From Candidatus Sumerlaea chitinivorans (GTDB lineage: Bacteria; Sumerlaeota; Sumerlaeia; Sumerlaeales; Sumerlaeaceae): a stretch of 64,000 bases of DNA. The stretch lies in NCBI GenBank assembly GCA_003290465.1, contig CP030759.1, forward strand, positions 908,672 to 972,671, given 5' to 3'. Under the pieces are notes generated by a model. It was not told the origin of the DNA. It saw nothing but the letters and a program-made list of their open reading frames with translations, and ran no database searches. Within the stretch, counting starts at the first letter, position 1. Each line of letters opens with the position of its first letter. This document shows positions 3,372-25,797 of the stretch, piece by piece. Position numbers and translations under genes: made by a program.

Positions 3372-3409
3372 TAAAAGTGGGGGGCAGCTGCTAAGCCGCT
3401 GGCTGCCCC
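3372..3409 (-). terminator. Rho-independent terminator of the pilT-like gene
   Basis: Read on the minus strand, an 8-bp perfect stem (GGGGCAGC at 3409-3402 with GCTGCCCC at 3388-3381) encloses a 13-base loop and is followed by CCACTTTTATT. The left arm lies in the last codons of pilT, so the terminator is immediately at the gene end. It sits in the convergent gap with the rmlA-like gene and may also limit read-through from the right-hand strand. Confidence 0.65.
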
Positions 3410-4491
3410 TCCGAACCTTGTTCGCTCAGCAGTGCCATCATCTTTTCTCGCATTTCGTTTGGATAATGGCAACGCTGGAGCGCAACTTCACCCGTAATGA
3501 TCCCACGCTTGTACAGATTGAGCAGATAGTCATCGAGAGTAATCATGCCCTGCTTCGCGCTCGTTTGGATCGTGGAAATAATACGGTTCACCTTCTTCTC
3601 GCGGATTAGGTTTGCCACTGCGGGAGTGTTGTGAAGGATTTCGTACGCAGCAACACGGCCCTTACCGCTCGCACGCGGAACAAGCGTCTGGGCGATGATT
3701 GTGCGAAGCGCCACAGAGAGCACGGCACGGATCTGCTCCTGTTGGTTCACCGGGAATGCGTCAATGATGCGGTTTACAGTTTCGGATGCACTCACGGTGT
3801 GCAACGTTGCAAACACCAAGTGACCTGTTTCCGCAGCCGTGATTGCGGCTTCCATCGTCTCAAGGTCGCGCATTTCACCGACCAGGATGACGTCTGGGTC
3901 CTGACGCAACGCGCCACGCAGCGCGTATGCAAAGCTTGGGGTATCGACGTGAAGCTCTCGGTGCGTGACAATAGCTTTCTTGTGGGGGTGAATGTACTCT
4001 AAGGGATCCTCGATTGTAATGATGTGCACGTAGCGCTCGGAATTGATGTAATCGATCATGGTCGCCAACGTTGTGGTTTTACCGGATCCAGTGGGACCAG
4101 TCACGAGCACCAAGCCACGGTGGGCGTGGAGCACCTCAATGATAGAATCTCGCGGCAACCCAAGTTGGTCAAATGTTAAAATTTTGGAAGGGATGAGACG
4201 CATCACGATCGAAATGTTGCCGCGCGCGCGAAAGACTGCGCACCGGAAACGCGCTAAATCGCTGTAGGCGTACGCGAAGTCAGCACTCCCGGTTTCTTGG
4301 ATCATTTGCTGATACCGGGGCGGCGTGATTTCGCGCATAAGGCGGTCGGAGTCCTCGGGTGTGATGATGTTGGGGTCTACGATGTCGAGTGTTCCGTGCA
4401 AACGCATGACAGGTGGCTTACCCACCGAAATATGCAGGTCTGATGCGTCACGTTCCACCACAAGCTTGAGCATTTCGTTCATTTCAAGCAT
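3391..4491 (-). CDS. pilT: Type IV pilus retraction ATPase PilT family
   Basis: A hexameric cytoplasmic ATPase of the secretion superfamily that depolymerises type IV pili for twitching motility. The 366-residue length matches PilT (about 345-370). The N-terminal PAS-like part has the DASDLHISVGKPP signature. The core has Walker A GPTGSGKTTT (132-141), the Asp box (TIEDPLEY), Walker B ILVGEMRD and the His box (ETGHLVFATLHT). The C-terminal STIQTS...GMITLDDYLL segment corresponds to the PilT/PilU tail rather than to assembly ATPases, and there is no tetracysteine zinc site. No other pil gene is adjacent. The assignment to PilT rather than PilU is likely but not proven. Confidence 0.92.
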   Translation of the reverse strand: MLEMNEMLKLVVERDASDLHISVGKPPVMRLHGTLDIVDPNIITPEDSDRLMREITPPRYQQMIQETGSADFAYAYSDLARFRCAVFRARGNISIVMRLIPSKILTFDQLGLPRDSIIEVLHAHRGLVLVTGPTGSGKTTTLATMIDYINSERYVHIITIEDPLEYIHPHKKAIVTHRELHVDTPSFAYALRGALRQDPDVILVGEMRDLETMEAAITAAETGHLVFATLHTVSASETVNRIIDAFPVNQQEQIRAVLSVALRTIIAQTLVPRASGKGRVAAYEILHNTPAVANLIREKKVNRIISTIQTSAKQGMITLDDYLLNLYKRGIITGEVALQRCHYPNEMREKMMALLSEQGSEGQPAA

Positions 4492-23235: not shown

Positions 23236-25797
23236 ATGGAAATCCTGAGAGAACCCATTGGAGCAGTGAGGAGAAACGCAGTTTGTTTCCTTGTGGTCGC
23301 CCTCTTGCTAATCTGTTGTGGGCCTGTTTCGGCGGATGAAATCGTCTACAAAGGGACGAATCAGGTCGAGCGAGGAATTGTCGTCGAGGAATCCCCGACG
23401 AAAATACGATTCCGCGACGAGCAAGGTCGCGAAAAGCAAATTGATCGCATACTGATCCAAGAGATTCGCCGGGATACGACGGGCGGTGTTACTCTTTCGG
23501 AATTGTTGAGTCAGATTTCCTTCGCTCGCCAAGCCGGCGATTATCGGCGAGCCTTCGAGGCTGCACTGACTGCGGTCAGAACCAACCCGCAAAGCGCCAC
23601 GACTCTCTCAGAGGCATTTCAAGTGACCTTGCTTACAGCGGAGAACTCCGCACGTGAACTCTATGCAAAAGGCGATGTAGCTGGAGCCCACAAAGTTTTT
23701 GCAGAGGTTTTCCGCGCGATCACGGCACCGGAGGCGGAAAAACTCATTGCTTCAACAAGTGATTTAAAGCGCTGGCGGGAAACTGTGGGGAGATCATACT
23801 CCACGGTTGCGTACCTCCTTGCCATCCAAACGCTACAAGATTCAGCCAGTACGACAGCTGCGCTTCAGTTGCTACGCCAATCTGTTGAAGCAGATAATTC
23901 GAATACGACAGCGGCTATTTCCTTGGCCCGTTTGGCAAGGCGACTTGGAGATACTGAGCTTGCCCGAAAAACCTACGAATGGGTGATTCGGACGGGAGGA
24001 AACGCCTCAGAACTTGTTGGTTTAGCCCGAGCCGAACTCGAACAGATGAAAGCCCAGCTTTTGGCCGCTCAGCCGCAACTGCCTACTGCAACTGTGGCTC
24101 AGCCTCAGCCGCAGAATCCGCAGACTGTCTCCTCTCCCCTGCCCCAAGCCGCGCCTCCTACCACAGCCGCGGAGCCTCAGTGGCTGCGTGCTTTGCGGGA
24201 GCGCCTTGCTTCTGTGCCGGGCATGCAATATCTTAAGCCGGTTTACGACGAAGTCGCGAGTGGCCAATACAACACCTATATTGTAGGCGGGGGCTCCTTT
24301 ATCCTTATCTTCTGGATTATCCCTTATGCCCTTGTACGGAGTCGAAGTCGGAAAGGCGATGTTTTAGCCGCGGAAGCGCGGCAGAGTGTCAAACGGTGGG
24401 GTATAATTGCATTCATCCCGTATCTGTTCAAAAGCCTGGCAGCAGCAAAACCCAAAAATCGCTGCCCATTTTGCAATAAAACGCTCGACAGAATTGACGA
24501 TTACACTGATCTGAACTTCTATTCCTGTCCCCACTGCCGCGAGACGATTACTCCCATTTACGACTTGAAGGACTACATTAACCACTTAATTCGCCAGGTG
24601 GACCTTTCTTCTCGTCACGCAAAGCGAGGCTTGGAGACCGTTGTCGAGCGCGATGCAATGGTAAAGCTGGTTCGAGCCGTGATAACGTTGGCGTTTCGTC
24701 GTCGTGCCAGTGATTTACATTTGGAGAGTGATTTAGAAGGCGCAAAGTTGCGCATCCGAGTTGATGGAATGATGTACGATTTTCTCAGTCTCCCCAAAAG
24801 TGTCTCTTCAGCCTTTATCTCCGCACTCAAGATTATGGCGAACCTCGACATCACGGAGCGTCGGGTCCCACAAGATGGCAAGTTTTCCCTCTGGGTGGAT
24901 AAGAACGATCTCGATTTGCGCATCAACACAAGCCCTTCTGCCATGGGGGAAAAAGTTACCATACGAATTCTCAGCCAAAAGTCCATTTTGGTGGATCCCG
25001 TGAAACTGGGTCTTGAGGGGGAAAATCTTGAGCACTTTGAAAGTGCAATTCACCGGCCTCATGGAATGATCATTGTCACAGGCCCTGCTGGATCAGGAAA
25101 ATCTACGACCCTCTACGTGGCATTGAACGAGATCAATACGGGCGAGAAGAATATCGTCACCCTTGAAGATCCCATCGAGTATCAGCTCAAGGGTATCTCG
25201 CAAATGCAGGTGAATCCAGCTGCGAACTTCACCTTCGCGTCCGGAATGCGTTCAATTCTGCGTCAGGATCCTGACGTCATTATGGTGGGTGAGATTCGCG
25301 ATCCAGAAACTGCCGGGATTGCGGTGGATGCGGCTCTCACCGGCCACCTGGTCCTCACAACCCTACACACAATTGATTCGGTCACGATTTTTGCTCGGTT
25401 GGAAGAGCTTGGAGTGGAGCCTCGTCGAGTGGCGAATGCCTTGGTCTGTGCAATTGCCCAAAGGCTTGTGCGCGTGATTTGCAGCGAGTGTAAGCAACCC
25501 TACAAGCCGAAAAAACCAGATCTCGAGGCGCTGGGGCTCTTAGCGCGCGATCTCGAATTCTTTCACGGGGCTGGTTGCGAAGAGTGCATGAATACGGGAT
25601 ACTGTGGCCGTGTCGGCATCTTTGAATTCTTTATCCCTGATGCCGAAATCCGTGAGCTCCTTGAGGCAAATGCCACCTTATCTGTCATTCGTGAGCTGGC
25701 GCGCAAGAAAGGGCTTCGGACTCTACGAGAAGAAGGAATTCAAAAAGTGCTGCAGGGCCTCACAACGGTAGAAGAGGTCATCCGCGTCACATCTTAG
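23236..25797 (+). CDS. Membrane-anchored GspE/PilB-family ATPase fused to an exported N-terminal domain
   Basis: An 853-residue fusion. Residues 10-34 look like a signal peptide or anchor (a hydrophobic run ending CCGPVSADE). Residues 35-275 form an exported-looking region with a short beta part (DEIVYKGTNQVERGIVVEE) and helical TPR-like repeats (FARQAGDYRRAFEAAL, LARRLGDTELARKTYEWV). A Pro/Gln/Ala-rich linker spans about 276-310 and a transmembrane helix about 348-367. The cytoplasmic part has a zinc ribbon (Cys410, 413, 431, 434) and then the secretion ATPase: LHLESD, Walker A GPAGSGKSTT from 616, Walker B VIMVGEIRD from 681, His box TGHLVLTTLHT and the tetracysteine knuckle (Cys749, 752, 781, 784). 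The usual N-terminal GspE/PilB docking domain is absent. Start ATG 23236, or GTG at 23266. I infer an extension-type motor coupled directly to an extracytoplasmic domain. Confidence 0.82.
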   Translation: MEILREPIGAVRRNAVCFLVVALLLICCGPVSADEIVYKGTNQVERGIVVEESPTKIRFRDEQGREKQIDRILIQEIRRDTTGGVTLSELLSQISFARQAGDYRRAFEAALTAVRTNPQSATTLSEAFQVTLLTAENSARELYAKGDVAGAHKVFAEVFRAITAPEAEKLIASTSDLKRWRETVGRSYSTVAYLLAIQTLQDSASTTAALQLLRQSVEADNSNTTAAISLARLARRLGDTELARKTYEWVIRTGGNASELVGLARAELEQMKAQLLAAQPQLPTATVAQPQPQNPQTVSSPLPQAAPPTTAAEPQWLRALRERLASVPGMQYLKPVYDEVASGQYNTYIVGGGSFILIFWIIPYALVRSRSRKGDVLAAEARQSVKRWGIIAFIPYLFKSLAAAKPKNRCPFCNKTLDRIDDYTDLNFYSCPHCRETITPIYDLKDYINHLIRQVDLSSRHAKRGLETVVERDAMVKLVRAVITLAFRRRASDLHLESDLEGAKLRIRVDGMMYDFLSLPKSVSSAFISALKIMANLDITERRVPQDGKFSLWVDKNDLDLRINTSPSAMGEKVTIRILSQKSILVDPVKLGLEGENLEHFESAIHRPHGMIIVTGPAGSGKSTTLYVALNEINTGEKNIVTLEDPIEYQLKGISQMQVNPAANFTFASGMRSILRQDPDVIMVGEIRDPETAGIAVDAALTGHLVLTTLHTIDSVTIFARLEELGVEPRRVANALVCAIAQRLVRVICSECKQPYKPKKPDLEALGLLARDLEFFHGAGCEECMNTGYCGRVGIFEFFIPDAEIRELLEANATLSVIRELARKKGLRTLREEGIQKVLQGLTTVEEVIRVTS

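Follow-up and report, generated by a model that had tools for sequence, protein, structure and literature searches.

A GspE/PilB-like ATPase with its own membrane anchor and a predicted exported domain in Sumerlaeota

Results

One reading frame joins a predicted exported domain to an ATPase through a membrane helix

The window analyzed here is a 64,000-nucleotide stretch of the Candidatus Sumerlaea chitinivorans genome, which is assembled as a single contig of 3.29 Mb; a complete genome in the phylum Sumerlaeota, that of Ca. Sumerlaea chitinivorans BY40, has been described (PMC8092238). Positions 23236–25797 of the window's forward strand form one uninterrupted open reading frame that, by ORF and Pfam analysis, encodes an intact, membrane-anchored GspE/PilB-like ATPase of 853 amino acids. 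From N to C terminus, this protein, hereafter the fusion, comprises a signal peptide, an SH3-like barrel, TPR-type helices, a disordered Pro-rich linker, a transmembrane (TM) helix, a Cys4 zinc ribbon, and a complete GspE/PilB-type ATPase. Because both flanking genes, one panC-like and one glycosyltransferase-like, lie on the opposite strand, the fusion gene is probably transcribed alone.

Hydropathy analysis of the 853-residue protein yielded only two strong hydrophobic segments, at residues 15–33 and 349–367, which look like a cleavable signal peptide and a stop-transfer helix, respectively. The putative signal peptide (residues 1–33; 23236–23334, forward strand as for all features of the gene) has an n-region with RR, an h-region at 15–28, and a cleavage site predicted by inspection between VSA and DE. 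It precedes two domains predicted to be exported: a five-strand SH3-like barrel (residues 34–78; 23335–23469), seen in AlphaFold2 models, and a TPR-type helical domain (residues 87–277; 23494–24066), identified by AlphaFold2, fold searches, and weak Pfam TPR matches at residues about 200–266. A Pro/Gln-rich linker (residues 280–335; 24073–24240), taken as disordered from its sequence and low pLDDT, leads to the single TM helix (residues 345–372; 24268–24351), which is supported by hydropathy, alignment, and AlphaFold2 and in which W360 and P363 are nearly invariant. On the predicted cytoplasmic side, alignment and AlphaFold2 place two short helices (residues 376–388 and 390–402; 24361–24441) broken at the invariant G389, the second of which is hydrophobic and probably lies at the membrane surface. 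The zinc ribbon, recognized by alignment, follows (C410/C413/C431/C434, with CxxC pairs at 410 and 431; 24463–24537) and precedes the ATPase core (residues 471–852; 24646–25791), which was delimited by Pfam, by sequence match to solved structures, and by fold search.

AlphaFold2, supplied with 37 aligned relatives, returned a whole-protein model with a mean pLDDT of 88 and a pTM of 0.59, which does not fix the relative placement of the domains. It contains a helix at residues 10–27 and, at the residues given above, the barrel, the TPR-like helices, the 345–372 helix, the short helices, the ribbon, and the ATPase, with low confidence across 280–335; modeled separately, the exported domain reached a pLDDT of 95. 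The first-pass annotation of this DNA had read the same succession, from signal through TPR region, Pro-rich linker, one TM helix, and Cys4 ribbon to a complete motor core, and ORF, Pfam, hydropathy, and AlphaFold2 analyses all bear it out; the SH3-like barrel had been missed.

Residue composition is consistent with export of the N-terminal part, which has no cysteine in its approximately 317 residues compared with 10 in the ribbon and ATPase, and the TM helix is flanked by one Lys/Arg on its outer side and by five within 18 residues on its inner side. A different topology, with a hydrophobic N terminus that does not act as a signal peptide, a TPR domain kept in the cytoplasm, and a chain that enters the membrane as a re-entrant loop or hairpin, would draw on a second hydrophobic stretch after the TM helix (about 390–402), whose hydrophobicity is high in some relatives (seg2 above 1.6). 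We regard this as very unlikely: in the window protein the stretch is weak (1.03) and is modeled within the two short helices, full-length TPR-bearing relatives start with a signal-type N terminus, and the scarcity of Cys outside and enrichment of Lys/Arg inside also argue against it.

The ATPase core is intact, but the protein departs from the named families

Pfam PF00437 (T2SSE) matches residues 473–850 with an E value of 5.6e-122 and 407 bits, against a curated cut-off of 24.9. The core holds a Walker A motif (GPAGSGKS, 616–623; 25081–25104), a Walker B motif with the catalytic Glu, identified by translation and alignment (DPDVIMVGEIRD, 678–689; 25267–25302), a His box, and a tetracysteine zinc knuckle located by motif and alignment (C749/C752/C781/C784, with CxxC pairs at 749 and 781; 25480–25587). 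No substitution was seen among the 37 aligned relatives at the four ribbon cysteines, the Walker A Lys, the catalytic Glu, the knuckle cysteines, or the Gly between the short helices, and candidate arginine-finger residues are likewise invariant or nearly so; this retention of catalytic and cysteine motifs argues that the fusion is under selection as an ATPase.

Among solved structures, PilB, PilF, and GspE are nearest to the core by sequence, and Foldseek likewise places PilB, T. thermophilus PilF, and GspE as its closest folds (TM-score by target up to 0.92–0.95), with a structure-aligned identity of 45–46% to PilB and T. thermophilus PilF. Searches with the exported part recovered generic TPR folds only. 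These matches included the P. aeruginosa PilF pilotin, but also many unrelated TPR proteins.

Although it shares the GspE/PilB core, the fusion lacks features by which the named families are recognized. Its scores fall below the NCBIfam equivalog cut-offs for both GspE (492 bits, cut-off 630) and PilB (455 bits, cut-off 676); the PilT model scores 157 bits against the 492 of GspE, placing the fusion nearer to GspE than to the PilT/PilU retraction ATPases. No N1/MshEN docking domain was matched in the protein, or at the gene in a genome-wide search in which other ATPase genes did match, in keeping with the first-pass view that the docking domain is missing. GspE/PilB ATPases are soluble, whereas the fusion has a predicted TM helix (345–372) and signal peptide. 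Finally, neither the window locus nor the loci of relatives have conserved platform, pilin, or secretin genes beside the fusion.

The anchored layout is a phylum-wide feature with a variable exported part

Searches with a profile of the TM-ribbon region (A1) found matches in 32 of 40 Sumerlaeota genomes, including the only one outside the class, at essentially one copy each. The eight genomes with no match are mostly incomplete, and in one of them (G003) a contig edge interrupts an N-terminal part of the gene. At 20 of the 30 Sumerlaeota loci examined, a single frame runs from the signal peptide and a long exported part through the TM helix and ribbon to the ATPase, with about 34–55% overall identity to the window protein; at the remaining 10, the N terminus is truncated (3), shortened (4), or polytopic (3). 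Across a sample of about 350 genomes, strong A1 matches outside Sumerlaeota occurred in only one lineage, also of phylum level; a search of that lineage then gave matches in 9 of 14 genomes (E 1e-18 to 4e-26), and several of its proteins have the full layout of signal, SH3, TPR, TM, ribbon, and ATPase. The anchored layout is genuine, is old within the phylum Sumerlaeota, and occurs there once per genome. A frameshift or assembly join, which the first-pass annotation had named as grounds for refuting its reading, does not account for such recurrence, nor does a mis-called fusion of two genes: we found nothing in favor of an artifact, and the same one-frame layout in tens of independent assemblies from two phylum-level lineages leaves it a negligible likelihood.

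What stays the same across relatives is the TM anchor, the zinc ribbon, and the motor, whereas the exported part varies. In most proteins it comprises signal, SH3, and TPR. It is shorter in L051 and L052 and almost gone in L141 and L142, and in three Sumerlaeota proteins (L060 10256–12319, L143 6610–8958, and L145 9189–11264) a polytopic N terminus of about 5–8 hydrophobic segments replaces the exported TPR domain. Because five relatives have hardly any exported TPR part or none, the conserved task seems to be holding an active motor at the membrane, with the exported domain added in the majority of members; a constant anchor and ribbon beside a variable exported part is what we would expect if tethering were the essential task. 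Nothing in our data supports the extracytoplasmic sensor that had been proposed at first.

A maximum-likelihood tree was built from ATPase cores after removal of one very divergent sequence (family f264) and two paralogues on long branches. It groups the fusion proteins in a single clade (99/98), distinct from the conventional MshEN-type motors, even those encoded in the same genomes. The f264 family belongs to the second lineage (L156 8600–11173; also L154 and L155), and its very divergent ATPase has lost the His box (SSTNRQTIVCLESAD). Its Walker A (GPPKSGKT) and Walker B Glu remain, so the degenerate Walker A that we had considered is ruled out; the protein is possibly a partly inactive motor.

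Conventional motors and their docking partners coexist with the fusion

The window genome encodes eight GspE/PilB-like and about nine PilT-like ATPases, and seven of its eight MshEN matches fall in frames that also bear an ATPase core. PilM (PF11104) matches occur at several places. A PilMNOPQ-like row lies at 1968–1974 kb and a T2SS-like operon with GspE, GspF, pseudopilins, and a GspL-like protein at 1871–1883 kb (gene names beyond the Pfam matches were read by eye), each with a conventional motor of its own. The first-pass annotation had suggested that the fusion could replace docking partners and had proposed checking whether pilM/gspL is absent from the genome. The presence of these genes and of several MshEN-type motors rules out a genome-wide loss or replacement of docking proteins; at most, only this one motor does without PilM/GspL-type partners.

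This coexistence of several conventional motors would also suit a regulatory or localizing paralogue that joins or marks a conventional machine, for example at the pole or at peptidoglycan via its exported domain, rather than a main motor. The resemblance of the exported domains to scaffolds and the divergence and lost His box of the f264 ATPase point the same way. We nonetheless consider such a role unlikely, since catalytic motifs are retained throughout Sumerlaeota, and a single copy per genome with a phylum-wide history better suits an independent machine.

Gene neighbors in Sumerlaeota gave no lead to function: they are conserved solely inside the window protein's own family, and the flanks differ between families. 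At four loci of the second lineage, the fusion gene is the third of a three-gene row (L138 8274–13584, L139 8464–13656, L151 8699–13722, and L153 585–5759), after a free signal-SH3-TPR protein and a second exported protein. The latter, which in L139 has a TolB_N-like start and a formylglycine-generating-enzyme (FGE-sulfatase) domain, was assigned in L138 and L151 by sequence similarity and in L153 by position. A profile built from the exported domain of the fusion matches the free SH3-TPR protein (E 4e-17 in L138, a score that TPR repeats may inflate), so a homologue of this domain probably works on its own at the same site.

A lone PilT-like ATPase gene (366 aa) lies at window positions 3391–4491 on the reverse strand, distant from other pilus genes. 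At 1034.7–1035.9 kb (L126 9668–10903) is a standalone PilC/GspF platform gene with no adjoining ATPase, a candidate partner of either the fusion or the PilB encoded at 613.7 kb. Approximately 6.5 kb before it, L126 1519–3111 encodes an exported 530-aa protein whose SH3-like start resembles the fusion's exported domain (profile E 5e-7).

A probable sister branch of membrane-anchored ATPases is often encoded beside CvpA

A loosened profile retrieved GspE-like ATPases of 470–531 aa that start with a TM helix and carry a conserved W..V.WVN.D motif, together with a planctomycete-like pair (L211/L212; 610–618 aa) with a signal-like start and TM segments. Many weak anchor-profile matches fell within short open frames, and translation scans detected no ATPase at those loci. 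The TM-anchored ATPases lack the exported SH3/TPR domain, with only a short segment in L211/L212, and a zinc ribbon is found in some of them (L147 and L213). They form their own clade (98/89) in the ATPase-core tree, and the node that separates them jointly with the fusions from conventional MshEN-type motors (89/88, in an unrooted tree) is suggestive, not firm. The fusion layout is thus less isolated than the first-pass annotation supposed, with a probable sister branch of TM-anchored GspE-like ATPases in other lineages.

In several unrelated lineages, the TM-anchored ATPase gene directly adjoins a CvpA-like (PF02674) gene, often overlapping it or lying a few bases away (L213 7922–10020, L214 2614–4694, L215 10920–13041, L217 7871–9876, L218 5391–7396, L147 7059–9245, and L212 7014–9608). 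This makes 7 of the 9 TM-anchored loci, a count in which one gene falls below the Pfam cut-off and L218 is judged by the near-identical L217. None of the 40 Sumerlaeota genomes, the window genome included, has a CvpA match. PilT-like genes also occur near this branch, one directly before the signal-plus-TM GspE-like ATPase of a planctomycete-like genome (L211 6746–10080) and one just after the cvpA gene of L215 (13152–14249).

These observations raise the possibility of a separate membrane-anchored ATPase system with no type IV filament, an envelope device powered by ATP in which the anchored ATPase would cooperate with the integral membrane protein CvpA elsewhere and with its own exported domain in Sumerlaeota. 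The joint split from conventional motors, the CvpA neighbors, their lack of a match in Sumerlaeota, and the fusion's want of pilus neighbors all fit. Yet the core keeps filament-motor motifs and is structurally PilB/GspE, PilT-like genes lie near two TM-anchored loci, and the CvpA absence, being a lack of detectable matches, could be coincidence, so we hold this system to be possible but on the doubtful side. Comparably doubtful, if anything slightly more so, is the broader proposal that membrane-anchored GspE-like ATPases are a distinct superfamily branch serving an undescribed envelope machine, CvpA-paired elsewhere and with its own SH3-TPR domain in Sumerlaeota and the second lineage. Any replacement of CvpA by the exported domain is speculative.

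Discussion

The layout, its conservation, the intact ATPase motifs, and the single clade are established. As to function, we see even chances that the fusion is a hexameric GspE/PilB-type assembly motor whose own membrane anchor and exported domain make PilM/GspL-type recruitment unnecessary for this motor; its export, hexameric state, platform partner, stator role, and substrate are ones that we infer. The signal peptide would carry residues 34–340 across the inner membrane until the TM helix (345–372) halts transfer, and the zinc ribbon and short helices would keep the ATPase ring at the membrane's inner face, where it could act on a platform protein of the PilC/GspF kind. The exported SH3-like and TPR domains, flexibly linked, might attach to some component of the envelope, such as peptidoglycan, a secretin-associated protein, or a filament subunit, and so provide the stator link that PilM/PilN or GspL supply for ordinary motors.

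In favor of an assembly motor, the core is nearest to PilB/PilF/GspE, the MshEN domain present in conventional motors is missing here, and PilT-like genes one or two genes away in two TM-anchored relatives connect that branch with type IV pilus motors. Against it, the fusion has no conserved pilus or secretion neighbor, the PilMNOPQ and T2SS loci are already served by conventional motors, and the standalone PilC/GspF is a candidate platform only. The TM-only branch, which in most loci adjoins cvpA rather than pilC, may do a different job.

An ordinary pilus or secretion motor is free inside the cell, whereas the fusion is predicted to be joined permanently through the inner membrane to an outside domain. 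Motor attachment may thus have solutions other than recruitment by PilM or GspL, a matter in which the N-terminal docking domain has been called poorly understood (PMC11656802). A review proposes rotation of a platform spindle by the ATPase (PMC10191384). Free rotation would be barred to a motor fixed by its own TM helices to an outside domain, so the fusion would lend itself to testing models that hold the ATPase ring stationary. The fusion is also a pointer to a broader and apparently undescribed group of membrane-anchored motors, many of them encoded beside cvpA. In the papers searched, with queries on the fusion layout, TM-anchored GspE/PilB, CvpA together with GspE, and planctomycete PilB, we found no description of either the fusion, as the first-pass annotation had anticipated, or the pairing of a TM-anchored ATPase with a CvpA-like gene.

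Of the known systems, GspE/EpsE/XpsE have the ATPase core, tetracysteine knuckle, and Walker motifs in common with the fusion, whose fold matches GspE structures. GspE is soluble and docks on GspL through its N-terminal domain (structure 4pht; PMC11656802), whereas in the fusion the TM helix, ribbon, and exported domain occupy the place of the docking domain, and no GspL-like gene adjoins. PilB/PilF, including MshEN forms, have the same ATPase core, but the fusion is without their MshEN/N1 domain and lies outside any pil locus. The TM-anchored GspE-like ATPases (e.g., L147 and L211–L218) occupy the neighboring tree branch and likewise set an N-terminal membrane anchor before the core; these are usually encoded beside cvpA and have no exported SH3/TPR domain, whereas the Sumerlaeota genomes have no cvpA match. 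The link itself would work like GspL, PilM-PilN, and TcpR, bridging the inner membrane between a motor and a domain in the periplasm. The folds differ, GspL combining actin-like and ferredoxin-like folds, and in the fusion the link belongs to the motor polypeptide itself.
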